From contig AP031351.1 in NCBI GenBank assembly GCA_037833965.1, positions 25,742,501 to 25,806,500 of the forward strand: a stretch of 64,000 bases of DNA, read 5' to 3'. Position 1 is the first letter of the stretch; each line of letters begins with the position of its first letter. This DNA is from Marchantia polymorpha subsp. ruderalis (Eukaryota; Streptophyta; Marchantiopsida; Marchantiales; Marchantiaceae). The position numbers were made by a program, and so were the translations under genes. Positions 14,345 through 51,321 of the stretch are shown here, piece after piece. The notes beneath the pieces were generated by a model. That model was not told where the DNA came from. It ran no database searches and was given only the letters and a program-made list of their open reading frames with translations.

Positions 14345-14349
14345 AAGGC

Positions 14350-15073: not shown

Positions 15074-15075
15074 TC

Positions 15076-15510: not shown

Positions 15511-15561
15511 AAGATCTATGGAGATAGAATTAGATCTCAGAATAGGAATTTACCCCTCTTT

Positions 15562-18175: not shown

Positions 18176-18181
18176 TACAAG

Positions 18182-28132: not shown

Positions 28133-28204
28133 TCATTTCACTCCTAGTGGATGGATGACGTGGCAGATAATCATAAATCATCATCGTAAATCATTTCTTC
28201 GATA
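28133..28204. other. Short spacer with a fragment of a B-type LTR (inverted)
   Basis: CACTCCTAGTGGATGGATGA (about 28140-28159) is the reverse complement of part of element B's LTR (about 7730-7755). It is probably the older insertion site into which F jumped. The rest is unassigned. Confidence 0.45.
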
Positions 28205-28219
28205 TATCAGCTAGCAAAG

Positions 28220-28855
28220 GTGGAGGCTATTGCACGCATCTCTCGTCCCACGGATGTGAGTAGAGTTCATGCATTCATGGGTTTGGCGAACTACTACCGG
28301 AGGTATGTGAAGGGGTTCAGTGCTATAGCCAAGCCTTTGAACAAGTTGCTGAAGTCAGATCAGGAGTGGCAATGGGGAGATGAGCAGGAGAGAGCTTTTG
28401 TTGAGCTCAAGGCCAGGTTGGTGGCCGCTCCCATCTTGAGGAGACCTATCGGAGGTCGTCCATACCAGTTGCACACTAATTGGAGTATGTTGGGACTTGG
28501 AGCGGTGTTGACGCAGCGTGATGATGAGGGCAAGAAGTTTGTGGCTGCGTACGCTAGTCGTTCGAACAATGCAGCGGAGTCGCGGTATAGTTCGTACGAG
28601 GGAGAGTGCTTGGCAGCGGTGTGGGCTGTGGCACACTTCAGGTGTTACTTGTTTGGTATGCAATTCACCCTTGTTACTGATCATCAACCGCTCAAGTGGT
28701 TGATGGAGTCCGACAAGCTTACAGGGAAGCTTGCACGGTGGGCTCTCATCTTACAGGAGTACGACTTTCAGGTAGTGCATAGACTTGGAGTTTCGAACCT
28801 AGATGCCGATGGTTTGAGTCGGAATCCATGCCCTAGCCATGACGATGACACTTGA
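28220..28855 (+). pseudogene. G1 RT thumb and RNase H
   Basis: The frame covers the RT thumb motif (RAFMGLANYYRRYVKGF type; here VHAFMGLANYYRRYV) and an RNase H with TNWSMLGLGAVL, SSYEGECLAAVWAVAHFR and VTDHQPLKW. The first catalytic position reads TNWS where G2 has TDWS, so the first RNase H Asp is Asn in this copy. It ends at a TGA (28853-28855) that is also present in G2 at 41553-41555. Confidence 0.88.
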
Positions 28856-29020
28856 GCTAGATGGCATGGTGAGGTTGACGAGGAGATGGTGCCTGGTTGG
28901 CATGCATCTGCCTTCATGTGTTAGTTACGTGGGAACTCCAACAGATAGGATCATCTGACATCTTACTCTAGTCAAAGAGTAGATGGTCAATCTTCAGATC
29001 TTGAGGTTGAGGATGGTGGT

Positions 29021-29320
29021 GTGGATCAGCGTGATGTTCACGATGATGCATTGGTGTTGGAGTTCCTACGGACCAGCATGGTGCCAGGCAAAGTGGGTGC
29101 CAAGAAGCGAGATCGTGTTCTCCAGCGGGCAAAGAGGTACCGATTGGAGGGATCACATGTTCTCCGAGTGTGGGAGGACGGTAGGGTACGAGTAGTACCA
29201 CATCCAGCCAAGAGAGCACGCATTGTGAAGCATGCTCATGAGGAGTTGGGACATTTTGGAGTGAAACGTACATACAGCTTACTCCTTGGTCAGTATTGGT
29301 GGCGTGGTGTGCATACTTAG
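29021..29320 (+). pseudogene. G1 integrase N-terminal zinc domain, first half
   Basis: Contains the two His of the HHCC domain (HAHEELGHFG) and the QYWWRGVHT motif. A TAG at 29318-29320 precedes the two Cys (CMVCD), which lie in the same frame downstream. G2 has the same TAG at 42018-42020. Confidence 0.85.
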
Positions 29321-29410
29321 GTACAGCAGTTGGTATCACGTTGCATGGTTTGTGATCAAGTGAAGGCATCATTCAATGCCCCGACACTAGTGTTACATCC
29401 ATAAATCATC

Positions 29411-30013
29411 ATGAGATTGGGTTACCGTTGGAGTTTGGACTTTGCTAGACCACTACCTTTGACTGTACGACATCATCGGTATGTGTTGGTGATGGTGGAG
29501 CATTTCTCCAAGTGGATTGAGTTGATGGCATTACCTGACAAGGCAAGTGAGGGAGTAGCGTATGCTTTCCTTGACAGAGTGCTTAGTCACTATGGTGCAC
29601 CAGCTAAGGTGTTGACCGATCAGGGAACGAAGTTTCAGGGTGAGTTTCAGGTCTTGTGCGACAAGGCACTGATTGATCATCGGATCACGTCGCGAGATCA
29701 TCCACAGGCGGATGGTTTCGCTGAACGTGTTGTACAGACGGTGAAGAGGGCGTTGCGCAAGTATGGCCTGCAGAAAGGTCATCTTGGGGACTGGGATATC
29801 CAGTTACCGTGGTTGGCCATGGAATATCGGTTCAGTCAGCAGGCATCCTTGGCTTCCTTCTCACCATATTTTCTATTGTACGGCCGAGATCCAGACTTGC
29901 CAACATCGATTCGTCGTGAGTCTAGCGAGGTGGTGAACCTTGATGACCCGAATATGTGGATGAGAGTATGTTCTCAGCGTGCAGAGCTCTTTCGGAGAGT
30001 TCGGAGCGTTTGA
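29411..30013 (+). pseudogene. G1 integrase catalytic core
   Basis: DDE residues: D in RWSLDFARPL, D in LTDQGTKFQG, E in DGFAERVVQTV. The last two are separated by 34 residues, one fewer than the usual 35; G2 has the same spacing. The core is uninterrupted here. A short deletion near 30003, compared with G2, shifts the frame into the next entry. Confidence 0.9.
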
Positions 30014-30479
30014 GAATCTTGCGATTGCTCAATATAGAGATACGTTGCGGTATGCAACCATTCAGGGAGGAGGTTATCGACCATCAATTCGTAGATTCCA
30101 TGTGGGAGACTACGTCTATCTACAACAGACTACACCGACGACATTGGATGTGACGGCGGGACGCACAATCTTGCGAATGCGGGAGCTGTTACCTTCTGGA
30201 GTTCTCCTGTTGGAGGGTCGTGACGGCGTTGTTTGGAAGGATCATGTGCGCAATTGTGCGCCATGCCACCTCCCAAACGTAGATGGCACTATGGACCCAA
30301 GCTTAGCGATAGTACGTGCTGGCTTGAGGTGCATGCTGTGTGGGTCAGCTGGTCAGGCGGCACGTATGTTGGTGTGTGATAGGTGTTCTAGGGGATGGCA
30401 CATGTTGTGCCTGACTCCGCCTATCAATGTTATTCTGGCTGGACGATGGGTTTGTCTTCGATGTACTTTAGAGGGGTAG
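29979..30479 (+). pseudogene. G1 integrase C-terminus with intact PHD finger
   Basis: After a GPY/F-like module (FHVGDYVYLQQ, DGVVWKDHVRNC), the protein ends with a complete C4HC3 PHD finger at residues 118-162 (about 30330-30464): CMLC, CDRC, GWHMLC and WVCLRC provide all eight zinc ligands. PHD fingers read histone H3 tails, often by their K4 methylation state. In chromoviruses this position holds a chromodomain, so the PHD finger may have an equivalent targeting role (inference). The Met shown lies in the frame-shifted junction and is not a real start. Confidence 0.88.
30330..30476 (+). other. PHD finger of G1 integrase
   Basis: C-x2-C … C-x2-C-x4-H-x2-C … C-x2-C spacing with the conserved Trp before His (GWH) and before the last Cys pair (RWVC). 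This is the domain that makes the element's C-terminus unusual. Confidence 0.88.
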
Positions 30480-30644
30480 ATGACTTGATCTTCACATGTT
30501 ATAAATTGCAGATAGGCGACTAATGATGGGGCGACATAGCACCCGGCCTACTGGTTCGTGCACCCACGAAGGTGTTTAGCATGTAGTTGTAGATAGAACT
30601 ACCTGGGAGTTAGAGGAACCTGACCGCCAGCTAGGGGGGCGAGT

Positions 30645-30758
30645 TGTGACATTTGAGTGTGTACTCTCTCGCGCCTTATATGTGTGTATGTGTGCGTATG
30701 TGTATGTGAGTAGCATGTCAGCGATGTAGAGTGTATGGCGATATGTATTCGCACGACA
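30645..30758 (+). repeat. Terminal block T of G1
   Basis: TGTGACATTTGAG…CGCACGACA. Matches 43355-43470 and 43768-43883 in G2. Contains a (TGTATG)n-like stretch. Either U3 of an LTR or the 3' terminus of the element; see the G2 terminal-structure finding. Confidence 0.8.
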
Positions 30759-30789: not shown

Positions 30790-32271
30790 TTTGATGTAGA
30801 GCCCACTAATGCGGGCCTTCATAGCCATGAGGCCAAGTAACAGAGACATTTAGCATAGATCTTATCTTGATGATCACAACAATCACACGCTGATCTTTCC
30901 TCTTATTTGGAATAAAATCAAGTAGCTTCTTCTGATCTTTGTACCAAATTCTCATTACAAAATCACATAGGAGACCATATATTGTATGATCCAAACGTTG
31001 CTCATGTGCATTCCTAAGCTAGCCATAAAAAAATCTTCATGTGTCCATGCATTGATTCCATAATGTTGTTGGTATCTTGATTGTTACGGCATGTCTTGCT
31101 CTGTTCATCACAAATTCACTGACCTGAATTCAAAAGTAGTAAGTTAGATGTACTTGTGGAAGATCATTAAGCAAAAAACGACTTTCAAAATGTAAGAACT
31201 CCAGATAGGATGCACATGTTACAAACTTACACTTACTCAAACAAGGTTTCCATTCTGTTTGGAAGTAGTACACAAATTGTGGCTCTGAGAGTTGAAAATT
31301 TTTGAAAAATAATAGAAGCTTCATTGTAGCATATCTTTCCACATCAAATTCTTCTCCATCAATAGTCAATGTGCTTCCAAAGCACAGGTCTTCTAATGCA
31401 GCATTCATAATAGCTCTCTTTTCATGACCACTCACAACCTCAATCAATTTCTTTGTCCATGCTTTTTGAACATGATCTATGCAAAGAAATACAGGGATAT
31501 GTGGAAAAACAATGTCTAGGGCAAGTCTCTCATTGTCATCACAATCCTTCATGAAGCAAGAGGTCATCCATCCATGGATATAATGTTGGATCATCTTCTT
31601 CACTGCAGATAATAATTCCACCAGATCTTGTGTTTCTTCTCTTTTGAGTAACAAAAATACACTAGAATGTTTGTGTTCATATTTTGTAGAACACCATAAG
31701 GATGTACAGTGGATACTGCATCACAAAAAATAAAATAAATGTATCAATTTGCTGCTAGCAGTACTCTACAAAGTACTCATCTTCATTGATACTAAGCTAA
31801 ACCTGATAAAAATGAATGATTCGCTGTTTTTATGTATTGATAAGCTAGACGTGAGCAAGGCATATAAAACAACATATACAGCACACATTAAGAAGCTCAA
31901 TAACGTCTTAGTGGATTGGTCAAAGCTCCAAACCGTCATTTTTCCAAGTATCTTGCAAATTGCAAGATAGAATATACATAATCATGGAAACAAGATGATA
32001 AGAACATCAAAATGGAAAAGTAGAATATTACTTTATACTACTGTGTGCCATGCATTCCATCTATAGCAACACAACCTCCATTTCCATGTTTTAGCAACCA
32101 TTCCAAGAGCAAAGTTCTTGTAACAGCAAGCCTCAATGGTTTAAATGGATCATTATTTGATGCCTGATACAGAACAACTTGAGATGAATTCGCTTTCATC
32201 TATAATTCTATGCTAATTCTATCATTAACCTGCCTTCTCCAAATTTCTTTGTCGAGTTCCAATTTGATATT
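30790..32271 (-). pseudogene. MULE-transposase-like gene, 3' part (left of G2 insertion)
   Basis: On the minus strand, coding-like blocks run from the G2 edge leftward. First IKLELDKEIWRRQVND (about 32222-32271) and LRLAVTRTLLLEWLLKHGNG followed by AIDGMHGTQ (about 32040-32165), which resembles the DATFGTN-type first catalytic Asp of MULE transposases. Next is an open frame at 31130-31654 (SCFMKDCDDNERLALDIVFP, then FLCIDHVQKAWTKKL), typical of the second-Asp region. Then a block with NNIMESMHGHMK and RLDHTIYGLLCDFVMRIWYK at about 30850-31110. An AG|GT-like junction near 32035 suggests an intron, but stops and a frameshift near 31680 show decay. It may be a MULE-derived host gene or a dead transposon. 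Confidence 0.6.
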
Positions 32272-32559
32272 TGTCATGTAGTTACGAGTTGGCTCACGCA
32301 GTTTGAGCACTTACTATATTTAGACGTGGAAATAGGGTTCGGGTCACGAGGGGTATAGAGTCGGGGACGGCTCGAAGAACGTTAGTTCTTCGAGTCGAGC
32401 CTGGAAGCGTTGGGAGCGTAGAGTGACTTTCCCCTTTGCGTCGACCTGGATTCTCCGAGTGTGGAGTGGGTTAGGCTTGACTCATGTTTGTGACGGTGAC
32501 GGTTTGTTGCCAGTAGGGTAATTGACCGACGGAAATTCCAGTGGGAAATCTCCCGTCCA
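32272..32559 (+). repeat. Block A, 5' copy (288 bp)
   Basis: Begins TGTCATGTAGTTACGAG and ends CTCCCGTCCA. Repeated at 43473-43760 with about eight to ten differences. In a U3-R-U5 model this is R-U5. It contains a perfect stem-loop: CTCGAAGAAC, loop GTTA, GTTCTTCGAG (32371-32394), preserved in the 3' copy (43572-43595). Confidence 0.85.
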
Positions 32560-34865
32560 TTTCACTCGAAGAACTCGTTTCTCGTCGGAAGTCGCACGAA
32601 GCCGACGAAGTTGATGAGGGTTTTTTTCAAAGATTTTGTTCATTGGAACCTGTAGTTTGGTGACAGTTTTAAGGTTTGCAGTCAGAGTGCGAGTTTACCA
32701 TTGAAGACGTCGCCGTTGTTATTGTCGTCGGCGTCCGCAGTGTTTGCTTTGGTTTTAGTCTCGTACTTTTTGGTCATCTCCGGGTTTGTGTGCGATGTGA
32801 TTGTTGAGCCGCCAGACATCGGGAGCAGACAAGATCTGATCACAGGAGGGATTCGGCCGGTGGTGTTTTTGCAAGGAGGCGCGGATGCATAAGAGCTCGG
32901 GAGTGGACGGCTGGATGGCCCACTCCTCACAAATCCCGTCTGCAAAATTGGATTCGAACGGATTCTTGATGGGGTTTCGATGATCATTCGTTCGTCTGTT
33001 CTGATGGATAATGGTCTTATGATTGTGTCGGAATCTGTAGGATTTTGAAATTCCCGATTTGATGGAGGAATGCGCTACTTTCTTCGAGTTTCATCTCGTC
33101 TCTGCAAGCTTTCTCTGTGCGCAGAACCTCCGGCACTCGTCGAATTCGCTTGTCCAATTCCGCGCTTTGACGCTCTAATTGTCTCTTCAGAGGTCCCAGG
33201 ACGCGGTGCCTTCACCCTCGAGCTCCTTCATCCGACATCAGTACCTGTTGGCGATTTCCTCTTTGATCTTATAGTAGGTAGCTCTTTGCGCGGTAGTCGG
33301 GGGTCGTGCAAGAACTTAGGTCAAGGGACGTCAGAGAAGAGCTGCGGGAGCCAAGAATGAATGTATGTCTTCTGAATGGTGCAGCGAAATTGCCGGACAT
33401 CGACCGCGCAGACAAAGAAATTGGCCTGTTGAAAAAGTGTGAGTATGTCTGTGGTGACGGGAAACATGCACAACTTCGCCACGGCTTGGCAGTCGGAGAG
33501 TTATTAGAGAAATAAGCTAGTCATTGGGAATGTGGGGCTTGCGGGAGCAAAGCAGAGAGAACAGAAAGTGCAACCGAAATTGCAACCGGAGAACTGTCAC
33601 AAGGAGAGGTAGGTGGATGCACTGAGCCCGAACCGCCATCGTTCTAGTCCGTGACGCCAAGTTATTTAGTGCTTATCTACTGCAGAGTCAAAGCTCAGGT
33701 GTGAAGAGATGAGGGTGGCCACCAGTTTGGACGGTTACCGAAGCTTCATGTTCCCTCCCAAAAGCGTTTAGGAGTTTTGTTTAAGAACATGGAACCCGAT
33801 TTGGTTCTTAAACGTAGCGAAGTAGTTGAAGCCTTACATGAGCAGATGCAAGAATCAACAGCGCTGATGCGTTTTTGTACAATAATATGTACATACTGCC
33901 CCTTCCTGTGATTGACTTATCGACTTTTTCCATTTCGTGGCATCGCAAGAGTTCCTTCAGTATTTTTGATTATCTCAAGCCAGCTCTTTGAGTCGGGAGG
34001 TAGTAAACAAAGAAGGATTGTTAGAGGACGTGAAGAAATTTTTAGAGAGAGGAAGGATGAAGAGGAACGAATGTTCCTGATCGCAGTAACCTCTGAGATA
34101 ATTTTCAAGATCTCGAATGTGCAGCGTATTCTGCAGCCATAGAGGTCTGTGAATAGGTTAGAAGGGTTGACTGAACGGATATACTGAATAGATGGTTATT
34201 CTTTTTGCGTTTTCTGAGGTTAAAGAAAGGTGCAAGACTTTTCAGTACCCGGGAAGACTTTATTAGAGTTGCTTGTTGATGGAATTCATAGTTTAACTAC
34301 TCAAGTTGGACGGGAGAAAAAGTCCGAATTTGAACCTACAAGTTCAGACTGTACAAGCTTTTCTACTAGATACGGTTATGGACAGAAAGTAGATAGGCAA
34401 CTTCAGTAGTCCGCCAGCTTGCTAGAGTTTATTGCATTAGTTTTCCAGCTATCATTGGAAGCATAGCTTTATTTCTTGTGAAGAAGCATGTGTTTTTCCA
34501 TGCAAGAGGGTGTTTCTAGGGCATAAGAAATAGTTATATAAATGACGATGATGGAGATTTAGAATTCCGTCAGGTGGAGAAATCAGGAGGTGAAGTTGGC
34601 CTGTGCAGGTCTTTGAGTGCCTTTCAGTTTTATCATATTTGATTTTCAGAGGTAGTTTGCAGCAGGCATTTTCCTGGATTTTTTGAATTTTAGTCAAGGA
34701 GTTAGTGAGATTTTGAATTCAGTAGTTGAAGAGAATTTGTTCATAAACAGATTTATAAAACTATTAAAACTATCTAGTAGTTTTATAGTTAAATTGGTGT
34801 CTAGTTCCCATTTAATGGTCTAGTTTACAGATATCCTATGAACGATCCTTGTACACAGTGGAGTT

Positions 34866-35234
34866 TTGACTTGTGAAGAGAAAATGCCGCTTGGTGAGAA
34901 AGTGGGAGACAGTTTACCAGAGATTCAGACAGTGGAGGTTGTCACCAGCGAGGAACGGGAGCAGGAAGTGACGGTGCAGCCTCAAGTAGAAGAGAATCCG
35001 GTAAACACTGTTGTGATAGAAGAAAAAAATTCTGGATTAGATTGGGACGAGGCACTAGCCGTAGAAAAACTTCTAGAGGAATCCGGCCTAGAGTATAAGA
35101 TATGTGAGAATGAATTACTCGACCTTCCGAAGGATGTTGCTGATCATTTGAGAGATGTTCAGTATGTTCAAGACTGTCTTTCAGAAGAAATTCTTGTACT
35201 AGAGAAATTTCTTGATAGTCTTCCAAAGGATTGA
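34866..35234 (+). CDS. G2 leader-encoded small acidic protein
   Basis: 122 codons, strongly acidic and helical in character: EEREQEVTVQPQVEENPVN, LDWDEALAVEKLLEESGLEY, DVADHLRDVQYVQDCLSEEI. The corresponding stretch of G3 (minus strand, about 63460-63840) retains the region, including the terminal GATTGATAGC, although it has decayed. The frame is upstream of and separate from gag (36008). No known domain; an accessory protein of the element is possible. Met 7 (ATGCCGCTT at 34884) is an alternative start. Confidence 0.5.
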   Translation: MTCEEKMPLGEKVGDSLPEIQTVEVVTSEEREQEVTVQPQVEENPVNTVVIEEKNSGLDWDEALAVEKLLEESGLEYKICENELLDLPKDVADHLRDVQYVQDCLSEEILVLEKFLDSLPKD

Positions 35235-35537
35235 TAGCAACTACCTGTAGAGTTTAGACAAGAGGTACTGCAGGATCGGGAGTTTGCACTCGGTCTCACT
35301 GCCTGTAAAGCATTGTAAATATATATATGACGTAGTCAATACATTGAGCTTTCAGTGTGTAGTGTGTTTGTTGCGGGGGAGTGTGACCCCAGTGTGAAGG
35401 AGAAAAAAAAAAACAAAAAAAACAAAAAAGAGAAGAAAAAAAAAGAAAAAGAAGTTTTCAAACAAATTTTGTTTGCAATTTGATCAAAGAGGGCATCGTA
35501 AGCGCTGGAGGCCCAAGTTGATGGCAAGCGATGGAGA

Positions 35538-35792
35538 TTGAATCGGGATCGCGAAGCAATGCGATGTCCCGTGTGTGTTGTCTTGTTTTGTGATGTGTTT
35601 CCTTTAGACTGGAGAGTTGTTGCTAGCTGTTTGCTTGTGTTTGGATCCTCTCAGTCTTGCTTCCTGGCGCGCGCCCGTGTAGGGGTGACGCTGATTTTTG
35701 GAGTAGTTTTACTCCTGTGTGCTGGCGATAGGGGGCTGGACTTGATCACCGGCCGGCCTATCTATGTTTCTCTCACGGTGAGACTGGAGTGA
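35538..35792 (+). other. Open frame in the G2 leader, hydrophobic, also traceable in G3
   Basis: 84 codons with two hydrophobic stretches (FCDVFPLDWRVVASCLLVF; LIFGVVLLLCA). A homologous open stretch is readable in G3 (62908-63156, minus strand). Conservation could be due to RNA function or to a peptide; with only two copies I cannot separate these. Confidence 0.3.
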
Positions 35793-36007
35793 TGACCAGT
35801 AGACCGTGAGAGTCTTCTTGCTGTGATGACAGGTTAGGTTGCCCATACCCCTTAGCTAGTAGGGCTAGAGTAGTTCAGTGCGGCACGACGTCAGGGGCGG
35901 ATTGGGTTATTGGGTGGAGATCTGGCAGTGGTGCCAGTTGAGGTCTCGTCATCACGGAGCAGTCTAGTGATCATGTTGAGAACCGCGGTGGATTTACGCG
36001 GAGTAGG

Positions 36008-36724
36008 TTGAGGTATCGGCTACCTTCACCTATTTTGCCAGTTGTTGCGGAGCAGGACCATAGTGTTGCAGACACAGAGTCTTTGGTGGTGATATTGTCT
36101 AGTGTTCCAACCCCATTGATTTGGGACATGGACGGGATGTACGGGGCCGTGAAGGGCCCTCGACGTTACTTTGGTGCAGTGGGCACCATCGAGCTCGATG
36201 ATTTTATTCAGGAGTTCGACACGTGGTGTGATATGCAGTTTCTGCGTAACCCCACATTGTTTACACCCTCCTTTGCGTGGAAGGGGTTATTCCAGCATTT
36301 GAAGGGGCCTCCCATGGACAATTATCATGAGTTTGGGAGAGATTATGCTGCGGAGATTGATGCATAGAGGCGCCATTAGTCTCCGAACTACTTATCCATT
36401 ACTCAGGGTGGGATGGGTACCAGTGGAGGTGCAAGTATCGGCATCAGCGGAGGTGCGAGTAGTAGCATCAGTGAGGGTACCAGTGGAGCAGTTGGCGCAA
36501 CTGGTACTAGTACCAGCAGCGGTACTATTAGCATTGCCGGTGGCAGCACGAGGGAAGATGCTGGTGGCGTACCTTCGTTTAGCCCCATTCCTGAGTTCTT
36601 CCAGAGGTTGAGTAAGAATTATCAGGGGGTGAAGACAGAGAAGTTGAGGAGCCTCCAGGAGTTTGAGCGGAAGACTGGTGAGAGTCTTCGTGAGGCATAC
36701 ACTCGTATGCGACGGCTCATCTAA
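36008..36724 (+). pseudogene. G2 gag capsid region
   Basis: Frame with TIELDDFIQEFDTWCDMQF, then AWKGLFQHLKGPPMDNYHEF, a Gly/Ser-rich insert (about 36405-36560, GGASIGISGGASS), then FFQRLSKNYQGVKTEKLRSL and EFERKTGESLREAYTRMRRL. This is the pattern of a retrotransposon gag capsid. In-frame TAG (36365-36367) and TAA (36722-36724) interrupt it; both would be Gln codons before a C-to-T change. The next frame continues in register. The true start may be ATG 36008 or further upstream. Confidence 0.75.
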
Positions 36725-36736
36725 GTTACTCACGGT

Positions 36737-38797
36737 GTGACTGAGGCACAGGCTGTCCAGTACTGGTATCGGATCCTAGACAGAGAGTTGCGGAGGAGAG
36801 TGCGTGATGCTACTCTCATGAGCGACTCATCACCCACATTAGCCCATGTGTTTGCTCTTTCTGAGAAGATTGAGCTTAACATGGTGGAGGAGAGGGTGGT
36901 GACGTCTACATTTGCGAGGGACACGACCACTACTTCGCGTATTCCACATAGCCCAGCACAGGCTCGCCCCATAAGTGGGAGTCGTGGAGGTCATACACGA
37001 CATCCTTCAGGTCACAAAGAGCATAGTGCGCGGCCACCACTGCCTTCATTTTCGGGCCAGCCACAGGGACCGTCATGTTGGACATGCGGAGGAAGTCATA
37101 TGAGGAAGGATTGTCCCCAGGAGCGAGAGGGACAAACTCCACATGCTAGGCCACAGCCGGCACAGGTGACCTGTGATCATTGTCATCGACCGGGTCACCC
37201 TCGAGAGCGTTGCTTTGACCTTCATCCTGAGTTGAGATCTGGAGGTAGAGGTCGTGGAGGTGATGCTCCGCGAGGCCGAGGTGGTCGAGGTGGTAGAGGT
37301 ACCGGGGCCATTGAGCGTACCGCAACGAGAGCTACTTCCGCCACAGAGAGCATTATGGTTGCTCAGATTGAGCAGTTGGAGCAGAGGCTTGCTGCTATGG
37401 CTTGTCTGGGGGCGAGCACTTCCACATCTTACGAGGGAGAGGACTTCTCCTATTTTGCCAGTGCAGCACAGGTTGAGGCATCAGTTGCAGTGACCAGAGG
37501 TGGTGCTCGCACTTCAGAGCCACGTGGTGCGACTGTGGAGTTGGACCCTAAGAGGGGTGAGGGTGGACATCAGTCTAGACTTCCTCAGTCCTTTTTGTTC
37601 TCAGAGGTGGGTAGCAGTTCATCTATGAGACCTGCACCGCCTAGTGACACTAGAGTGAGAACTGAGGTTCTTACATCATCTATTGTGGACGCAGACGTGC
37701 CATCTAGTGCAGTGATGCGGATGGCCACTTCAGTCTTGCGATCTCCATTGTTTTCAGCCACGGAGTTGATAGACTCTGGTATTGATATGGCTCGAGTATT
37801 TCGGATAGCAGCCACGTCGTGTGAGCGTGGGAGAGTCGCTGCTACGAGTGCCGAGATACGTGAGGATACAATTGAGGACCCATCCTCAACGTCTACATTG
37901 TTCGAGGAGACGACTTGGCAGGCCGCAGCGGCGAGGATGGAGTCCTTACCAGCTCGCCCAGCCATTGATCGCGAGAGTACTGTTCCTGGTGTATGTATGG
38001 TGGACAACCGAAGTGGTCTATTTCGGTTAGTGAGTTCTACTGGACAGGTGTATGTCCCAGCCAGAGTTTTGTTGGATTCTGGTGCACAGCCCTTGATGTT
38101 GGGCAAGGCTGCATGCATTAGTTTGGGCATTCGGAGGTCAGAGTTGGAACCTTGCCCATTCCAGATCCAGACATCACTTGGTGGCGCCAGCGATAGGTCT
38201 TACTTTATGACCAGGGAGAGCATAGCGGTGCAGTTGAGGCATGATCACCCTCATGATAGCTCGCAGTTTGGAGTTCGTGTTGTGGTTACATCGGCAGAGT
38301 CATATGATGTGCTTGTTGGTGGAGTGGTGTTATATCCGATGGGCTTTCGGATGGACTATTGGACGGAGACTGCCGCATATCGTCCTGGTTGGCAGTCCGG
38401 AGATGGACGTCTGAGCGAGCTACCAGTGAGATTTATTTCTTGGGATCGACCTCTTGGATCTTCATCAGCGGTCTTGGCATCTGTTGCGGGTTTTAGCGGA
38501 GTGCTTACCTGGCCCGATGACTTGTTGGAGAGGAACATGTCTGCCGACGATACCTCACTCTACGAGGATGTGAAGGAGGTTGTGAGTTTCACAGCGGCGG
38601 TGACTTCACCCTTAGATGTTCCACTGTGGAGTTCGTGCCAGGCACTACAGTTGGAGGCTGATAGGTTGGTGAAAAAGGCTTGGAGTGAAGCCTCTTTACC
38701 AGCAGAGCCAGACAAAGCTTCAGCTGATCGGCTAGTTAGTGGTTCTAGCGCATTGTTTCCATTGGTTACTACACCTTTTGCATGGGAGTATTCCTCA
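36737..38797 (+). pseudogene. G2 gag C-terminus, zinc knuckles and protease
   Basis: Continues gag in the same frame. Two zinc knuckles, CWTCGGSHMRKDC and CDHCHRPGHPRERC (residues about 113-158), are followed by an Arg/Gly-rich patch (RGRGGRGGRGTG). A long linker leads to the aspartic protease site RVLLDSGAQPLMLG at about residues 440-455 (about 38065) and the flap-like YDVLVGGVVLYPMGF. This part is open for more than 2 kb without a stop, in contrast to its surroundings. It runs directly into the methyltransferase. Confidence 0.87.
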
Positions 38798-39791
38798 GAG
38801 GGTGTTTGTTTGCTGGATCTTTTTGGTGGGATCAGCACAGGTTTGGCTGCGGTGTTGCAGTGAGGTATTCTCGTACGGAGATACTTGTATGTGGAGAAGG
38901 ACGAGACTGCACGTCGAGTCTCTTCACGACATGTTGCACAGTTGATGCGGCGTTTTCCTTCGTTATGCCGCGATCAACTGTCCGAGGATTCCAGAAGGCG
39001 TTGCCTTCAGACATTTTGTTGCTGGGGGCGCCAGACCTTGACCGCGTTGGCCATATTGATATGGTGATCGCGGGCTGGCCATGTCAGGGACACACACGCG
39101 CTGGACATGGGACAGGGTTGCATGATCCCAGATCTCGGATGTTTTGGAAGATGATGTGAGTGTTACGTCATCTCCAAGTGCAGCAGATGCGTTCTCCAGC
39201 ATACATTTTGAAGAACGTACCATTGTTGGGTGACACTCGTGCCCAGTTGATGGCGAGTGTTCATCAAGTCCGAGCATGGATTGGATCAGCAGTACTGTTG
39301 GATGCTGCGAGGGTTGGATCACGGGCTCATCATGCACGTTTATGGTGGACCAACCTTTTGCCACGTGAGATATTGCGTCATGCCTATGATTCTGTGCAGC
39401 GTGATCCTACACTCACCGTTGACAGTATCTTGGATGTTTTCCGACAATCTCAGGTAGTGAGAGTTGCTGACAGGTCATCTATGGCGAAGGTGAATAGCGT
39501 AGGTCAGCCTCGGATGGTTTTACCTACGTTAGTCAGTTATCCGGCATCACATGCATATCGTGATGGTGGACCTGGACTACTGTGGGACAGTACCTTACAT
39601 CAGTTGGTGGAGCCCAACGCTGATGAAAGAGAGCGTGCGATGGGGTTTCTTACTGGTGTGACCGCGGCTTCTTTAGTTTCAGAGGCGTCGCGTCGTCAGG
39701 TTTTGGGTCAGGCTATGGACCTAAATGACTTGACGTGGATTGTGAGCTTGAGTTTGGCCGAGCAACGCCGTTTGCGCGCAGATTTGATGGT
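38798..39791 (+). pseudogene. G2 C5 cytosine-DNA methyltransferase domain (DNMT3/DRM-like motif order)
   Basis: Motifs occur in canonical I-to-X order. Motif I: CLLDLFGGISTGLAAVL. Motif II region: YLYVEKDETARRVSSRHVAQ. Motif IV: DMVIAGWPCQGH with the catalytic Pro-Cys (about 39069-39090), then GLHDPRSRMFWKMM. Motif VI: ILKNVP, where the usual Glu of ENV is Lys (codon 39211-39213). Motif VIII: LLDAARVGSRAHHARLWWTN, close to the DNMT3-type AKEVSAAHRARYFWGN. Motifs IX-X: PNADERERAMGFLTGV and RQVLGQAMDLNDLTW. TGA at 38861 and 39157 and a frameshift near 39000-39060 break it; a perfect palindrome cuts its end. It lies between protease and RT. It would methylate cytosine in DNA; this copy cannot. 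Confidence 0.85.
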
Positions 39792-39843
39792 TGACCATCA
39801 AATCTGCGCGCAAACGGCGTTGCTCGGCCAAACTCAAGCTCAC
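39742..39843. repeat. Perfect 50-bp inverted repeat (2-bp spacer)
   Basis: Left arm 39742-39791, spacer TG, right arm 39794-39843; the arms are exactly complementary. It lies at the C-terminal end of the methyltransferase frame, right after the conserved motif-X region, and converts the sequence after it into an antisense copy. It is unlike anything else in the element. Confidence 0.95.
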
Positions 39844-40058
39844 CACTTACACCACTTATTAGCTCATTGCCTACCGGGACGGTAGTGGCAATGGCTGGGG
39901 GCGATAGGCGAGATATTCGTCATCCTTGGAGTTTATGGGACGTGACGTAAGGACTTGCCAAAGTTGCAGCCCATGCAGTTGGAGAGGATTCTCATGTGGA
40001 GGTGGCTACGAAGGAGGGTACGGAGAACCCTTCTTTGCAGTGTGTAGCGTAGCAACCA

Positions 40059-41441
40059 TTGACAGTGTCGCCTCCCTCTAGTGTGCCTATGGAGGAGGAA
40101 TGGGAGCCATTGATTGGTTCCCAGATCACAGGAGGAGAGCGACAATTGACACAATTCCTACGAGACTATAGGAGTTGTTTTGCCTTCAGTATGAAGGAGT
40201 TGGGTGCGTTGATTGGATCCGGTATACGGATAGAATTGGCTAGTAATACGCCAATCTTCCGTCGTCCTTATCGATACAGTGAGATGGAGAGAGATTTGAT
40301 TCGGAGTAGGACGTTGGATCTACAAGAGGCTGGACTAGTGGAGTTATCGCATGGTGAGTATGCGTCAGCCACTATCATGCTGGTGAAGAAGGATCTACAT
40401 GGCAACTACACGGATATGCGCATGTGTGGAGACTACCGTCCTATCAATCGGCAGCCAAAGTCCGATAAGTATGCCATGCCTACACCTGAGGAGATCTTTG
40501 ATGTGGTGGGACATGCGAGGATTTTTAGTACTTTGGATCTTCGGGCAGGATACCATCAGTTGCCAATTCGGGAGGAGGACAAAACCAAGACAGTGTTTTG
40601 GGGTGTCAACTCCCACGGCAAGGATTGTTTGTATCAGTGGCGATTCTTACCCTTTGGGTTGAAGAATGCACCTACCGAGTTTTAGAGGGTTATGGACAGA
40701 ATCCTGGCGGGGCTAGATTTTGTCAGATGTTACATTGATGATATCTTGGTGTTAAGTGACACTGTGGAGCAACACCAGATACACTTGCAGATTGTGTTTG
40801 AGCCATTGAGGGCTCATGGTTTGAGGTTACATCCTGGGAAGTGTAAGTTCTTCCAGGAGAAGGTTGAGTACTTGGGTCATGTGATATACCCAGGTGGTTT
40901 AGGAGTTCAGCAAGCAAAGGTGGAGGCTATTGCACGCATCCCTCGTCCCACGGATGTGAGTAGAGTTCGTGCATTCATGGGTTTAGCAAACTACTACCGG
41001 AGGTATGTGAAGGGGTTCAGTGCTATAGCCAAGCCTTTGAACTAGTTGCTTAAGTCAGATCCGGAGTGGCAATGGGGAGATGAGCAGGAGAGAGCTTTTG
41101 TTGAGCTCAAGGCCAGGTTGGTGGCCGCTCTCATCTTGAGGAGACCTATCAGAGGTAGTCCATACCAATTGCACACTGATTGGAGTATGTTGGGACTTGG
41201 AGCGGTGTTGACGCAGCGTGATGATGAGGGCAACGAGTTTGTGGTTGCGTACGCTAGTCGTTCGAACAATGCAGCGGAGTCACGGTATAGTTTAAACGAG
41301 GGAGAGTGCTTGGCAGCGGTGTGGGCTGTGGCACACTTCAGGTGTTACTTGTTTGGTACGCAATTCACCCTTGTTACTAATCATCAACCGCTCAAGTGGT
41401 TGATGGAGTCCGACAAGCTTACATGGAAGCTTGCACGGTAG
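40059..41441 (+). pseudogene. G2 reverse transcriptase and RNase H
   Basis: One frame broken by TAG 40683-40685, TAG 41043-41045 and TAG 41439-41441. RT motifs: RMCGDYRPINRQPKSDKYAMP, STLDLRAGYHQLPI, FLPFGLKNAPTEF and the catalytic RCYIDDILVLSD. RNase H: HTDWSMLGLGAVL, NEGECLAAVWAVAHFR and VTNHQPLKW, where Asn replaces the usual Asp. G1 has AAG at the 41043 site and TGG at the 41439 site, proving those stops are G2-specific. Confidence 0.92.
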
Positions 41442-41585
41442 GCTCTCATCTTACAGGAGTACAACTTTCAGGTAGTGCATAGACCTGGAGTTGCGAACCT
41501 AGATGCCGATGGTTTGAGTCGAAACCCATGCACTAGTCAGGACGATGACACTTGAGCTAGATGGCATGGTGAGGTTGACGAGGAG

Positions 41586-42020
41586 ATGGTGCCTGGTTGG
41601 CATGCATCTGCCTTCATGTGTTGGTTACGTGGGAACTCCAGCAGAGAGGATCATCTGACATCTTACTCTAGTCAGAGAGTAGATGGTCAATCTTCAGATC
41701 CTGAGGTTGAGGATGGTGGTGTGGATCAGCGTGATGTTCACGATGATGCATTGGTGTTGGAGTTCCTACGGACCAGCATGGTGCCAGGCACAATGGGTGC
41801 CAAGGAGCGAGATCGTGTTCTCCAACGCGCCAAGAGGTACCGATTGGAGGGATCACATGTTCTCCGAGTGTGGGAGGACGGTAGGGTACGAGTAGTACCA
41901 CATCCAACCCAGAGAGCACGCATTGTGAAGCATGCTCATGAGGAGTTGGGACATTTTGGAGTGAAGCGTACATACAGCTTACTCCTTGGTCAGTATTGGT
42001 GGCGTGGTATGCATACTTAG
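41586..42020 (+). pseudogene. G2 integrase N-terminal zinc domain
   Basis: In the RNase H frame, after a TGA at 41553-41555 shared with G1. HAHEELGHFG gives the two His; the two Cys (CMVCD) follow the shared TAG at 42018-42020. Downstream, a one-base length difference from G1 near 42103 changes frame before the catalytic core. Confidence 0.85.
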
Positions 42021-42162
42021 GTACAGCAGTTGGTATCACGTTGCATGGTTTGTGATCGAGTGAGGGCATCATTCAATGCCCCGACACAAGTGTTACATCC
42101 ATACCCATCATGAGATTGGGTTACCGTTGGAGTTTGGACTTTGCTAGACTACTACACTACCT

Positions 42163-42663
42163 TTGACTGTACGACATCATCGGTATGTGTTGGTGATGAT
42201 GGAGCATTTCCCCAAGTGGATTGAGTTGGTGGCATTACCTGACAAGGCAAGTGAGGGAGTAGCGTATGCTTTCCTTGACAGAGTGCTTAGTCACTATGAT
42301 GCACCAGCTAAGGTGTTGACCGATCAGGGAACGAAGTTTCAGGGTGAGTTTCAGGTCTTGTGCGACAAGGCACTGATTGATCATCGGACCACGTCGCGAG
42401 ATCATCCACAGGCGGATGGTTTCGCTGAACGTGTTGTACAGACGGTGAAGAGGGCGTTGCGCAAGTATGGCCTGCAGAAAGGTCATCTTGGGGACTGGGA
42501 TATCCAATTACCGTGGTTGGCCATGGGATATCGGTTCAGTCGGCAGGCATCCTTGGCTTCCTTCTCACCATATTTTTTATTGTACGGCCGAGATCCAGAC
42601 TTGCCAACATCGATTCGTCGTGAGTCTAGCGAGGTGGTGAACCTTGATGACCCGAATATGTGA
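42163..42663 (+). pseudogene. G2 integrase catalytic core
   Basis: Second catalytic D in LTDQGTKFQG and E in DGFAERVVQ, 34 residues apart. The first D (SLDFA in G1) is in the region 42110-42160, where a small insertion (CTACACTAC) disturbs the frame. It ends at TGA 42661-42663, TGG in G1. Confidence 0.9.
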
Positions 42664-43158
42664 GTGAGAGTATGTTCTCAGCGTGCAGAGCTCTTTCGGA
42701 GAGTTATGCCTGCAGCGTTTGAGAATCTTGCGATTGCTCAACATAGAGATACGTTGCGATATGCAACCATTCGGGGAGGAGGTTATCGACCATCGATTCG
42801 TAGATTCCATGTGGGAGACTACGTCTATCTACAGCAGATTGCACCGACGACATTGGATGTGACGGCGGGACACACAATCTTGCGAATGCGAGAGGTGTTA
42901 CTTTCAGGAATTCTCATGTTGGAGGGTCATGATGGCGTTGTTTGGAAGGATCATGTGCGCAATTGTGCGCCATGCCACCTCCCAAACGTAGATGGCACTA
43001 TGGACCCAAGCTTAGCGATAGTACGTGCTGGCTTGAGGTGCATGCTATGTGGGTCAGCTGGTCAGGCGGCCCGTATGTTGGTGTGTGATAGGTGCTCTAG
43101 GGGATGGCACATGTCGTGCCTAACTCCGCCTATCGATGTTATTCTGGCTGGACGATAG
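42664..43158 (+). pseudogene. G2 integrase C-terminus and damaged PHD finger
   Basis: Same layout as in G1: GPY/F-like module (FHVGDYVYLQQ), then a PHD finger with CMLC, CDRC and GWHMSC. A one-base insertion near 43157, relative to G1, creates a TAG just before the last Cys pair, so the eighth-ligand end of the finger is lost in this copy. Confidence 0.87.
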
Positions 43159-43340
43159 GGTTTGTCCTCGATGTACTTCATAGGGGTAAGTGACTTGATC
43201 TTCACATGTTATGAATTGCAGATAGGCGACTAACGATGGGGCGACATAGCACCTGGCCTACTGGTTCGCGCACCCACGAAGGTGTATAGCATGTAGTTGT
43301 AGATAGGGCTACCTGGGAGTCGAAGGGACCTGACCGCCAG

Positions 43341-43354
43341 CTAGGGGGGCGAGT
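43341..43354 (+). promoter_or_regulatory. G2 polypurine tract
   Basis: CTAGGGGGGCGAGT precedes the TGTGAC start of block T. This is where plus-strand DNA synthesis would be primed just upstream of an LTR. G1 has the same at 30631-30644. Confidence 0.7.
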
Positions 43355-43883
43355 TGTGACATTTGAGTGTGTACTCTCTCGCGCCTTATGTGTGTATATG
43401 TGTGTTCGTATGTGTATGTGAGTAGCATGTCGGCGATGTAGAGTGTATGGCGATATGTATTCGCACGACAGCTGTCATGTAGTTACGAGTCGGCTCAAGC
43501 AGTTTGGGCACTTACTATATTTAAACGTGGAAATAGGGTTCGGGTCACGAGGGGTATAGAGTCGGGTACGGCTCGAAGAACGTTAGTTCTTCGAGTCGAG
43601 CCTGGAAGCGTTGGGAGCGTAGTGTGACTTTCCCCTTTGCGTCGACCTGGATTCTCCGAGTGTGGAGTGGGTTAGGCTTGACTCATGTTTGTGACGGTGA
43701 CGGTTTGTTGCCAGTAGGGTAATTGACCGACGGGAATTCCAGTGGGGAATCTCCCGTCCATTTTAGTTGTGACATTTGAGTGTGTACTCTCTCGCGCCTT
43801 ATGTGTGTATATGTGTGTTCGTATGTGTATGTGAGTAGCATGTCAGCGATGTAGAGTGTATGGCGATATGTATTCGCACGACA
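43355..43883 (+). repeat. G2 3' terminal structure: block T - GC - block A - TTTTAGT - block T
   Basis: Block T (43355-43470), then GC, block A (43473-43760), then TTTTAGT and a second block T (43768-43883) differing from the first at about one base. T plus A (43355-43760) would be a normal TG…CA LTR of 406 bp following the purine tract. However, the 5' end of the insertion begins at block A without T, and the insertion ends with an extra T. The T-A junction is the perfect palindrome GACAGCTGTC. Confidence 0.9.
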
Positions 43884-44733
43884 TATTATACACATCAGCA
43901 TATGTGATATAATGATCTCTAAGAGGAGTCCCTTGCACATAGCCTAAACTCTGATGATTTTCAAACATTGCTTTTGCAGCACGCATGAGAATTTGTGGAG
44001 CTAAACCTCTTCTTAACTCGCATTCAAACCACTCCCTAGCGAAAAAACCTAGAAAATATTAGACAACGTGCTTGCTTAACGTCAAAGTTTTACAAACTGT
44101 AATAACAACAAACTTATTGTGCATATTAAAAATATGACGGACAATAAACTGTGAATAATAAACATATACATTGAAAATATTACAAATATGCCGTTAGCTG
44201 CACTCGGAGGATAAATTGTGTGTCATTTGAGATGACAAGCCAACACTATCCGGACACGTTGTGCCATGACAAGCTACACTTGCAGCATTTACGTGTCTTC
44301 TATACTTGTATAGCAACTTCGTGGTTCCTGATGCAATGTGATCATTAGGCAGTAGTTTAATGGCACTAAACTGCACTGACAGTCCTTGTGATGAGAATCA
44401 TGATCTAATCAATCCCTGCTACCCGGATCAAATTTTGTCTTTGTTCATGGATCTTGAAATTTGAGCTAAGCATACTCTTTTTACCCGTTTCTAGAATACC
44501 GTACTTGCAATAGTACATTGTATACGATTTCCAATGGTGCCTACCCTTCCACCCTTGTATGAGCAGCGTGTCACAAATTCCGTCTTCGCATCACTATAAC
44601 AAGATGCCTCTTCCAAAATAAAATCGTTAAGCCTCGAGCTTTTGATGTAGGCCGTCCCATTCGACCAATTCAAGATTAATGAATTGAAAGGGCCATCCCA
44701 CGGTGGGTCCTGCACAATCCATCTTGCCTCCAT
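43884..44733 (-). pseudogene. MULE-transposase-like gene, 5' part (right of G2 insertion)
   Basis: Minus-strand blocks: exon-like MEARWIVQDPPWDGPFN… with AYIKSSRLNDFILEEASCYS (44545-44733), ending in YKGGR at a GT that could be a donor; a middle block with LLPNDHIASGTTKLLYKYRR (about 44200-44430); and REWFECELRRGLAPQILMRA, then MFENHQSLGYVQGTPLRDHY (43884-44053), which runs into G2. The order resembles FAR1/MULE-family proteins with an N-terminal Cys/His-bearing region. The 3' part is at 30790-32271. Whether it was a functional host gene before the insertion is not known. Confidence 0.55.
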
Positions 44734-45091: not shown

Positions 45092-46079
45092 TGCTATTTA
45101 GTTTTAGTTTTAGTAACTTTTAGTTTAGATTCCAGTACATTACTTTAGATGGAACTTTGCTACCTCTACAGTGACGGCTTCTACATGCTTGCTTGGTTGT
45201 CAGAAAGTCGGGTCCGTAGACCCTAAAGTTCCCAAAACTGAGATAAAATCCGTCTGACCCGGAGTTGCCCAAAAAGAGCATTATGCAAGAAAGAAAGAGC
45301 ATGAAGCATGGAAAGAAACTAAGATCCGTGACATCTGGCAATATGGCAGTTTGTATAAGTTTGTGCAACTAAAAGAGTCGAGCTTTTTCTTGCTTTGAAT
45401 ATCGGTACAGTTGTCTACGTAACTTGTAGGTTCAGAACAAAGTGATCAGCTTTTTGGGAGTTTTTTAAACTTAGTGTAGAAAAACTTTGAACGAAGTAGA
45501 AGAGTACTTGAGGTTTTGGATTGCTGATATGATTGTTCTTCTAGCTCAGCTGTCAATTATGTGAACTCAAGCACAATTCAAGTTTCAGAGTCTGGAGGTC
45601 TTTACACTTCAAACATGAAACTGAAATCTTATTTCGTCCATGCTACGAGCCTTTTGCTTGTTTATCTCGTCGTATAGAAGACAATAAAACCATGATACTT
45701 GCTGAAGTTATATTTCTAGACATTGCTTGCAAGTGAAGAGAAACTTTGCTGTATACATGACTTAAACATACTTATGATGCTAAAAGCTGGATAACAATGA
45801 GTCGTGACTTCAGATGAAGATCTGATGTAACCGTACATCTAAACTCAAATATTTGATGTATTGACTAAAATGAAACAAGTCATACTGCCACTTTTGCACT
45901 AGTGTGCTAGTATCATGAATCAAAACATCTCAAATGAAAAATCTAAAGCACATTGCTCACTTGATAAAATTGTTGAAACGGAAACGTGCTATGTCATGTC
46001 TTTGTTGCTCCCTCTTTTTTTTAAGCGTATTCAAATACATTTTTGTTACAAATTGGAAGTTGTGATGAAATAACTTCTA
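45092..46079. other. AT-rich intergenic DNA
   Basis: I see no gene, no terminal repeats and no conserved coding stretch here. Confidence 0.5.
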
Positions 46080-47330
46080 TCATATGTGCAGTGTAATCTC
46101 CATCTTTATTTGATGATACTTCCGATCTGAAAGTGTTAAGTCTTAAACAGGCTCTGATGAGTTGTTTGGAACAAGTTATTATTCAATAAAATTTACAGTA
46201 TTACATCTTTTTTAGAATTTCTGAACTGCTTTTACAATTTTTCAGCTTTTTCAGTAGTTTTTTTTCCTTTGGCGCTTTCATTGTTTATCTGTTTAATATA
46301 GATGCATCATCAAGAATAATGCAGATAAATTATAATTCAATAGTACAACTGTAGTAATGAGATTAAGTAGTGGATGTAGCTAAAATTGAAACAAGCGTTG
46401 TAAGTGACTTTTTTAGGTGTGTATTAACACACCTACACACATCAAAATTCTTGATGCACATTCCATTCAAGTTCAACTAGTCCTGAAGGGATGAAGTAGT
46501 GATCACTTAATAATTACTTATGATGACATACTCCTACCTTCATCCTTTATGCAAGTCTGAATGCATTCAAATATTAGAGAAGTAAGTGTTATCTCAAAAA
46601 AATAAGCTTTTGTCTGAAATTACTTGAAATTTTTTTCTACTCTTTTTTCCAGGGAATCTGGTCACTTCTTTGTGTATTCTAATCCTTGACACCGCCCAAA
46701 GTGATCTGATTCTGCAAGTTTCTAATGATGACGTCGATGTATCAATAAGAAACACTTTTGCTCACACAAAATTTGAGGTGGAAAAAATCTTGCACTCTCT
46801 TTTTGATGACCCAAGCGCTTTCCTACATAGCTGCTAGCATTGATTCTTAGATTAAAGTATTTGGGAAATGGACAAGAATATTTCTTGGTCCTCAGATCTT
46901 CAGAAATTATTTCATATTATATAAATTGTCTACTGTCAACTAAAAAAAGTTCACAATATTTTTCACTCTTGTACATTTATTTAAAATACTCATCTTGACT
47001 TTGTACTGAAATTAGTCCAGTTCACTTTGGAACAGTGAAGATGTGGGATGTACACTTCTTTTGGTAGGACCTTGACTAGCTTTGATCATAATTACGCAAA
47101 GGCCGCACTCTGCTTTTTGACCACGCATTTCAAGACAACCCTAAACTCAGTGGACTATTTCAGCCCAGAAGCCGCGTTATTTCTTTGACTTCTTCACATC
47201 AATTGGAGGCCAGAGTAGTACCACCACTCATTAGTTTTATACCGCAGTCTATTGCAAGGATGTTGTGCAAAGGAAGCTACTTAATTTTTTCCCATGTCAT
47301 GCAACTACTACGCATTTACACTATGGTTCA
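46080..47330 (+). repeat. Diverged duplicated block, copy 1
   Basis: Aligns collinearly with about 51250-52575. Shared landmarks: TTTATTTGATGATACTTCC, GATGCATCATCAAGAATAAT, TACATAGC(T/A)GCTAGCATTGA, ACTTTGTACTGAAA and GGCAAGGATGTTGTG. There are many substitutions and small indels throughout. Non-coding as far as I can see; either a segmental duplication or two copies of an unknown element. Confidence 0.7.
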
Positions 47331-51022: not shown

Positions 51023-51091
51023 ACCAAGTGAAGACAAGCTCGTGAGTCCAGGGGTTCCAGATGCTAGGTAAGGTCCCAAGGAAATTGTCCG

Positions 51092-51321
51092 TTAAAGTTG
51101 GGATTGTATACAATAGCATCCTTGTCATTTTGGTGTACAATGTGTCTTTATTTGATGATACTTCCTATCTGAAATTGCCTAGTCATAAACAGGCCCTAAT
51201 GAATTGTTAAAGTTGGGATTGTATACAATAGCATCCTTGTCATTTTGGTGTACAATGTGTCTTTATTTGATGATACTTCCTATCTGAAATTGCCTAGTCA
51301 TAAACAGGCCCTAATGAATTG
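51092..51321 (+). repeat. 115-bp tandem duplication
   Basis: 51092-51206 and 51207-51321 are identical as far as I can see. The end of each unit (TTTATTTGATGATACTTCC…AATGAATTG) is the beginning of the diverged duplicated block, so a recent slippage or unequal exchange has duplicated its left edge. Confidence 0.93.

Follow-up and report, generated by a model that had tools for sequence, protein, structure and literature searches.

A DNMT3-type methyltransferase in a Ty3/gypsy retrotransposon family with split repeats in Marchantia polymorpha

Since 2018 it has been asked why a retrotransposon should carry an enzyme of a class with which its hosts silence it. The locus described here raises it in a liverwort. 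The window is a stretch of 64,000 nucleotides of the Marchantia polymorpha subsp. ruderalis genome (contig AP031351.1, forward-strand positions 25,742,501 to 25,806,500), and all positions below count from its first letter. It contains motifs of a cytosine DNA methyltransferase (DNMT) inside a Ty3/gypsy element. Statements on cited papers refer to the passages of those papers covered here.

Anatomy of the insertion and identity of its methyltransferase

Window positions 32272-43883 are one complete Ty3/gypsy insertion of 11,612 bp, read on the forward strand and flanked by the 4-bp target duplication TATT (32268-32271 and 43884-43887). From left to right it consists of a repeat A1, an 11-nt primer site, a 3.4-kb leader (32576-35941), gag and aspartic protease (35942-38345), the DNMT domain (about 38806-39780), a UAG stop, an ORF2 with reverse transcriptase (RT), RNase H, H2C2 and DDE integrase (40053-43013), a PHD finger (43039-43185, right limit set by eye), a polypurine tract and the repeats B1-A2-B2. 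The gag zinc knuckles (near 37070-37220) and the protease (about 38045-38345, with DSGA) were recognised by eye, and their Pfam support lies below the cut-off (RVP_2 E 0.16 in the window, Retrotrans_gag E 0.014 in the open-frame sister copy L010). The gypsy pol domains of L010 matched RVT_1 (7e-34), RT_RNaseH (3e-36) and rve (3e-13).

The window copy is a dead one: its gag-protease frame, DNMT domain, ORF2 (several stops) and PHD finger (an internal stop) are broken by stops and a frameshift, and motif VI of the methyltransferase is mutated (KNV, against ENV in L010). Because of this damage the motifs fall in different ORFs: motif I in the gag-protease ORF 36725-38863, as the original prediction had it, motif IV in another frame (ORF 38749-39159), and motifs VI, VIII and X in ORF 39160-39885. 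At the end of the domain there is a perfect inverted duplication of two 50-bp arms with a 2-bp spacer (39742-39843). The window also holds a second, 5'-truncated copy of the element, G1, on the same strand (about 28190-30758, left limit approximate), whose 3' end is B1 alone; a different Ty3/gypsy element (14333-18505) with a C-terminal sequence that looks chromodomain-like by eye; and a diverged repeat pair about 5.1 kb apart (46049-46602 and 51091-51789), one of which has a 115-bp tandem duplication.

The METHYLTRANSFERASE domain matched PF00145 above the curated cut-off in window ORF 38749-39159 (E 3.8e-5) and in the same region of L010 (1.5e-9), in a search that had been proposed as a check. 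Motifs I, II, IV, VI, VIII and X of C5 methyltransferases occur in canonical order and in the sense direction between protease and RT; motif order and Pfam match together confirm what had been noticed from the letters. The permuted DRM type is ruled out, as motif I precedes motifs IV, VI, VIII and X. Of the predicted likeness to DNMT3 or DRM enzymes, the affinity to DNMT3 is supported by profile and by fold. A profile built from 12 sequences found DNMT3A at 5e-28, 4onj at 2e-14 (labelled only 'DNA methyltransferase' and presumably a plant DRM), DNMT2 at 7e-11 and DRM2 at 4e-11. When the AlphaFold2 model of the close relative P0059 (80% identical, pLDDT 88.5) was compared with solved structures, DNMT3A, 3B or 3C entries filled all of the best 50 rows listed (best E 3e-19, TM 0.82 by target). 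As judged from this model, the nearest solved structures among the matches listed are the DNA methyltransferases DNMT3A/B.

Across the 12 aligned sequences, HRxR of motif VIII and the glutamate of motif VI were retained in all and the cysteine of motif IV in 11. Motif IV reads PCQ here and PCN in DNMT3A, so the fit to DNMT3 is one of overall profile and fold. All 12 sequences have, between motifs II and IV, some 17 residues that DNMT3A lacks, which gives mild support to a single origin of these element DNMTs. In a tree, all 11 C-order DNMTs formed one clade (99/99), with DNMT3A as the sole outgroup on a very long branch, while the RT and integrase trees were poorly resolved. We consider the observation and the assignment to a DNMT-bearing Ty3/gypsy element near certain.

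Among 20 fetched copies, ORF1 had 1351-1365 aa in 19 and ORF2 had 1042 or 1045 aa, in the same frame, in 15. The two are separated by a single in-frame UAG in the open-frame copies. The junction reads TAG CAA CCA in 19 of 19 copies printed, and this 9-mer is present in all 20 fetched copies, including L015; in the window it lies at 40050-40058. The distant relative L059 has TAG CAA TCA. The plant-virus (TMV-type) leaky-stop consensus is CAR-YYA (PMC2194720), and UAG CAA CCA, followed by a continuing frame, fits this context, so that we regard the stop as a putative readthrough site. In open-frame copies the DNMT lies before the UAG, at the end of an ORF1 of gag, protease and DNMT. It was thus correctly placed between protease and RT by the original prediction, but it belongs to the gag side of the element and not to pol. 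With a leaky-stop context following it, the DNMT would be expected at Gag level, and RT and integrase at a lower readthrough level. The arrangement is not universal among relatives, since in some of them, for example P0227 and the Klebsormidium nitens gene model P0050, a single protein contains both DNMT and RT.

After the integrase, a Pfam search found no chromodomain at E 0.1; a PHD finger (PF00628; E 1.6e-7 in the window, 9.4e-11 in L010) occupies this place, and we do not assign the family to the chromoviruses. The PHD finger had been put forward as a distinct partner domain. It does follow the integrase, but it is common to many environmental relatives and so is not special to this family. 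Its nearest solved relatives include CHD4, PHF21A, KDM5 and ATXR5, and several of these PHD fingers read histone H3 unmethylated at K4.

Presence across the family and selection on the domain

The genome searched comprises 241 Mb in nine contigs, and the element family numbers hundreds of whole or partial copies in it. Allowing up to two mismatches, a 26-base RT word has 296 matches and one from DNMT motif IV has 222 (reversed controls 0). The C-terminal half of the DNMT domain was found at 150 scored places, out of 518 candidates, with 85-100% protein identity. The best four full-coverage protein matches to the DNMT region are from Marchantia polymorpha (90-96% identical).

A sample of 35 RT-bearing copies was drawn from the exact RT-word places listed on contigs C1 and C2 and counted by hand; being exact matches only, these favour better-kept copies. 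The DNMT is present, whole or in part, in 30 of the 35. In 24 the match lists place it at or near the expected position (in one at shortened spacing), and among the other 11, which we fetched, six have all or part of it (in L046 only 25 residues) and five lack it (L037-L041). Four of these five end between the DNMT end and RT or within RT. The fifth has an internal deletion, as we read L041, where a 21-residue protease piece stands about 0.44 kb before a truncated RT with no DNMT between them. The DNMT thus belongs to the family and not to a single copy. The window copy by itself would be compatible with a host DNMT gene transduced once into it, or nested there by chance, and absence of the domain from other copies had been named as what would speak against the original prediction. 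The 150 scored places, the 30 of 35 sampled copies that keep at least part of the domain, the truncation or deletion of the other five, and the occurrence of a DNMT before RT also in Sphagnum, Klebsormidium, Closterium and environmental relatives lead us to reject such a transduction, to which we give next to no weight.

Selection on the domain was estimated by the Nei-Gojobori method from 20 copies with long open frames, taken from the 150 scored. Pairs between subfamilies numbered 51 for ORF1 (17 against 3 copies) and 26 for ORF2 (13 against 2). Between subfamilies, dN/dS was 0.119 for the DNMT, 0.117 for the protease and 0.19 for gag, against 0.73 for the 71-residue linker after the DNMT; in ORF2 it was 0.05 for RT and 0.18 for the PHD finger. 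All these values are indications and not tests, because the pairs share branches. Within the main subfamily the values were 0.199 (DNMT), 0.17 (protease), 0.33 (linker), 0.23 (RT) and 0.46 (PHD), and the linker reached 0.91 within the small subfamily. The linker appears unconstrained, and the results point to purifying selection on the DNMT.

The two A repeats of one insertion, A1 and A2, are 99.3-100% identical in all five long-frame copies read on both sides and 97% identical in the window copy. By this measure the family appears recently active and the window copy older. The five young insertions say little on the spread of the family, since they were picked for long open frames.

Split repeats, self-priming and integration

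The five copies read on both sides all have A1 (about 293 bp) at the left and B1 (119 bp), the dinucleotide GC, A2 and B2 at the right. This order, A-coding-B-A-B, is also that of the window copy (A1, TGTCATG...TTTCA, 32272-32564; B1, ending in GCACGACA, 43353-43470; A2, 43473-43765; B2, 43766-43883). The element begins with TGTC and ends with GACA. Eight copies had both ends read, namely these five, the window copy, L020 and L021, and each is flanked by a 4-bp target duplication (AAAG, ATCT, AAGA, CAAT, CACA, TATT, TGAT and TCTT), as compared with 0 of 56 mismatched pairs. L020 and L021 have B1 alone at the right end and are duplicated nonetheless. At the right end, 14 of the 20 fetched copies are B-A-B, one has an extra partial repeat (L023), two are B only, one is tandem-like (L009), and in two (L015 and L024) the 3' repeats were not seen. 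L036, which was fetched for the left end of L013, contained no A repeat.

At the B1/A2 junction lies the 10-bp palindrome GACAGCTGTC (43467-43476), the proposed integrase cleavage site (ACA-GC-TGT). A 20-mer containing it has 106 exact occurrences in the genome and none in the reversed control, and the palindrome is kept in the divergent subfamily (L027 and L028) and in L059. The latter (L059:1-9285) is a contig filed as a Synechococcales cyanobacterium MAG that reads as a eukaryotic gypsy element. Its ORF2 is 65% and its DNMT 48% identical to the family, and its best alignment to the family between LTRs is a 35-bp match at the palindrome (E 5e-5). The longest LTR word that the two have in common is 14 nt, a length reached by 1 of 1000 shuffles. 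The ends of L059 overlap by 127 nt, so that it is circular as assembled, but a collapsed LTR would give the same assembly.

We read the ordinary LTR of this family as B-GC-A, which would start with TGTGACA after the polypurine tract (AGGGGGG, 43343-43349; GCTAGGGGGGGCA in L059) and end with TTTCA before the primer site. Given this LTR, the A2|B2 boundary would be an LTR-LTR junction. In the window copy, and in the seven others with a left end found, A1 is followed directly by the primer site CTCGAAGAACT (32565-32575), whose exact complement, AGTTCTTCGAG, lies 181 nt upstream within A (32384-32394). We propose the latter as RNA 5' end and self-primer. In an RNA folded from the proposed primer start, a position that we chose ourselves, the first 12 nt fold onto the primer site (z -2.8, with 2 of 200 shuffles as good). 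L059 has other letters at its primer site (CTTGACAAAGAT) in the same arrangement, the complement being 176 nt upstream; the pairing, and not its letters, is apparently kept in this distant relative. When the primer sites were shuffled, 11 nt was attained in 0 and 1 of 500 cases. A Tf1-type self-primer pairs with a primer binding site just after the LTR.

These features suggest the following route. The transcript would start in A, prime itself and give an ordinary LTR cDNA with B-GC-A as LTR. The cDNA ends would then join, as a circle or concatemer, before insertion, and the DDE integrase would open the joined-end DNA at the internal palindrome, dropping GC, which would leave a circularly permuted copy. 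Opening a two-LTR circle in this way would give A1...B1-A2-B2 and opening a one-LTR circle A1...B1, and both forms are seen. Integration and priming by this route appear well supported by the sequences, the RNA start and the joined-end intermediate being deduced from them, and we infer that integrase opening of joined ends explains DIRS-like split repeats in an element with a DDE integrase.

Alternatively, the split repeats could belong to a DIRS-like tyrosine-recombinase element or be rearranged ordinary LTR insertions. To our knowledge, DIRS and PAT elements make no target-site duplication, whereas exactly 4-bp duplications flank A1 and B2 (or B1) in all eight copies with a clean control. 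No tyrosine recombinase (PF00589) was found in ORF1 or ORF2, the two frames searched, and a DDE integrase is present. The repeat order itself is that of DIRS elements, and the same has been reported for KnitGypsy-Dnmt3 of the alga K. nitens (PMC5890265). On balance we reject the DIRS identity and consider this whole alternative very improbable.

The proposed priming and the proposed cleavage have counterparts elsewhere. Tf1/Sushi-type gypsy elements, including the plant Tcn1 clade, are self-priming chromoviruses (PMC6317226). They resemble the liverwort family in using the element's own RNA as primer, which we propose here from sequence, but differ in being chromoviruses, whereas the liverwort family has a PHD finger, no chromodomain and split repeats. 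HIV-1 integrase, also a DDE enzyme, cleaves a palindrome formed from joined ends, at the two-LTR junction (PMC1905944); here the proposed site would instead lie inside the LTR and bound the genomic insertions.

In the leader, the last approximately 424 bp before ORF1 are common to the six copies compared, and the remainder differs or occurs in subsets only. The L011 leader contains an antisense part of a Sec63-domain gene (PF02889, 4.5e-34) and the leader of L017 matches that of L011 at 98% identity over 3.9 kb; host sequence thus appears to have entered the leader. L030 and L032 were grouped with these leaders, and other copies carry other leaders, as if the region exchanged cargo.

Relatives and the possible role of the enzyme

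DNMT and gypsy domains occur in one protein in Marchantia polymorpha, Sphagnum fallax, K. nitens and Monoraphidium neglectum, and also in Closterium NIES-54 (P0194) and Haematococcus lacustris (P0245). Riccia sorocarpa P0167 (DNMT and RT) and Calypogeia fissa P0170 (protease and DNMT) belong to the same group. Cymbomonas tetramitiformis P0053 has DNMT and integrase, and the DNMT was seen alone in Marchantia paleacea P0155 and Sphagnum troendelagicum P0078. Two domain orders exist, PR-DNMT-RT-RH-INT(-PHD) and RT-RH-DNMT-INT(-PHD). Four environmental gypsy relatives (P0272, P0273, P0284 and P0287) have a Dam adenine methylase (PF05869) upstream of RT, in the place of the DNMT; protease precedes Dam in three of them and a PHD finger precedes the integrase in three, P0284 showing neither PHD nor integrase. 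The C-termini of P0040, P0045 and P0048 contain DPW and PP/PW stretches that by eye recall another methyltransferase; Pfam named none in this region of P0045 and P0048, and P0048 also has a G-patch. A scan of viral contigs gave 11 loci with DNMTs 26-42% identical, and one of genome contigs gave seven, namely the gypsy element L059 and six loci from named bacterial strains (22-34% identical).

The closest known system is KnitGypsy-Dnmt3, a Ty3/gypsy element with a Dnmt3-type methyltransferase (de Mendoza et al. 2018, PMC5890265). It has in common with the liverwort family an unrearranged Dnmt3-type domain, DIRS-like repeats and purifying selection on the domain. The K. nitens gene model KFL_009030040 (P0050), which may be one of the elements of that paper, has the order PR-DNMT-RT-RH-INT and shows 43% identity across the matched 70% of the query. 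The differences are that the paper describes a Pol polyprotein ORF, whereas the liverwort DNMT lies in ORF1 before the leaky-stop context, and that here the host is a liverwort in which copies, whole or partial, number in the hundreds. In the passages covered, the account of KnitGypsy-Dnmt3 does not extend to the self-primer, the one-LTR form, the palindrome or the target duplications reported here; in a word search, the main text of that paper has 'tandem site duplication' once, for SymbioLINE, and neither 'PHD' nor 'Marchantia'. SymbioDIRS-Dnmt3 and SymbioLINE-Dnmt of Symbiodinium are likewise retrotransposons with captured cytosine methyltransferases, but are DIRS (with tyrosine recombinase) and LINE elements, not gypsy; SymbioDIRS-Dnmt3 is of Dnmt3 type and its de novo CG methylation was demonstrated in yeast (PMC5890265). 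Dam-type methyltransferases of DIRS elements are also DNA methylases carried by retrotransposons, but act on N6-adenine and are structurally unrelated to cytosine DNMTs (PMC5890265).

The original claim that this is an element of the kind reported in 2018, in a land plant, is therefore supported. The kind was already known; what is new here is that it occurs in Sphagnum and liverworts and has relatives throughout the green algae, and this speaks against the printed absence of transposon-encoded DNA methylases from land plants (Morozov et al. 2019, PMC6338049). A 2025 DNMT survey mentions earlier reports of retrotransposon DNMT3s in streptophytes and dinoflagellates (PMC12344493), and the main text of a 2019 survey of plant LTR elements (PMC6317226) contains neither 'Marchantia' nor 'methyltransferase'. 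Among the papers listed by our searches, no title or opening of an abstract pointed to a report of this family in bryophytes. Also apparently new, relative to the passages covered, are the conserved leaky-stop context after the DNMT, the split repeats of DIRS-like order, flanked by 4-bp target duplications in both the one-LTR and the two-LTR form, the proposed Tf1-like self-primer and the related gypsy elements with Dam before RT.

Taken together, we read the window insertion as a decayed member of a large, recently active Ty3/gypsy family with a gag-protease-DNMT ORF1, a putatively leaky UAG and an ORF2, which would prime itself, cut its joined ends at the palindrome, methylate new cDNA with a DNMT made at Gag level and choose its target chromatin by the PHD finger. 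We give this joint reading a probability of about 0.6. In it, the DNMT would travel in the particle and methylate the cDNA ahead of its integration, probably to protect the element or to mark it as self, and the PHD finger would replace the chromodomain in choosing target chromatin. Self-marking of cDNA is, we infer, the most likely purpose of the enzyme.

We also weighed two other roles. The DNMT could serve the host or limit the element, by placing or drawing repressive methylation onto new copies; this would slow their spread, and the enzyme would be retained because gentler copies survive. De Mendoza et al. raised this possibility (PMC5890265) and many copies are indeed decayed. However, dN/dS of the DNMT is as low as that of the protease, which suggests a role in each round of transposition, and the five insertions with both repeats read are very young, although picked for long open frames; we consider this role unlikely. 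Slightly less likely still is that the DNMT is no DNA methylase but acts on element RNA, or serves within Gag as a structural or nucleic-acid-binding component. The Gag level expected from the stop context would suit such a role, as would the isolated DNMT domain of KnitGypsy-Dnmt3, which gave no methylation in yeast, a result its authors call inconclusive because human DNMT3B also failed (PMC5890265). In K. nitens, where KnitGypsy-Dnmt3 copies bear CHH and CHG methylation, the methylome resembles those of land plants (PMC5890265); the enzyme thus shows no obvious signature across that genome, which counts against our own reading. Against an RNA or structural role stand the kept catalytic residues of motifs IV, VI and VIII, the DNMT3A/B structures as nearest among the matches listed, and the unrelated DNA methylase Dam before RT in relatives, and we favour methylation of new cDNA.

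More tentatively, and with our confidence on the lower side, green plants and algae may share a Ty3/gypsy lineage whose replication goes by way of DNA in circular or joined-end form, cut open at an internal palindrome by the integrase of the element itself. Its methyltransferase slot would be filled by a DNMT3-type C5 or a Dam enzyme, made in liverworts at Gag level by way of a leaky stop, and this enzyme would mark element DNA before integration.

Marchantia is a genetically tractable land plant, and as the family has many open-frame copies there, the five fully read being young, the purpose of the enzyme can be put to the test. The layout narrows the answer, since the methyltransferase should be made in step with Gag and some relatives have an adenine methylase in front of RT, and the repeat anatomy offers a concrete and testable integration route for split-repeat elements.
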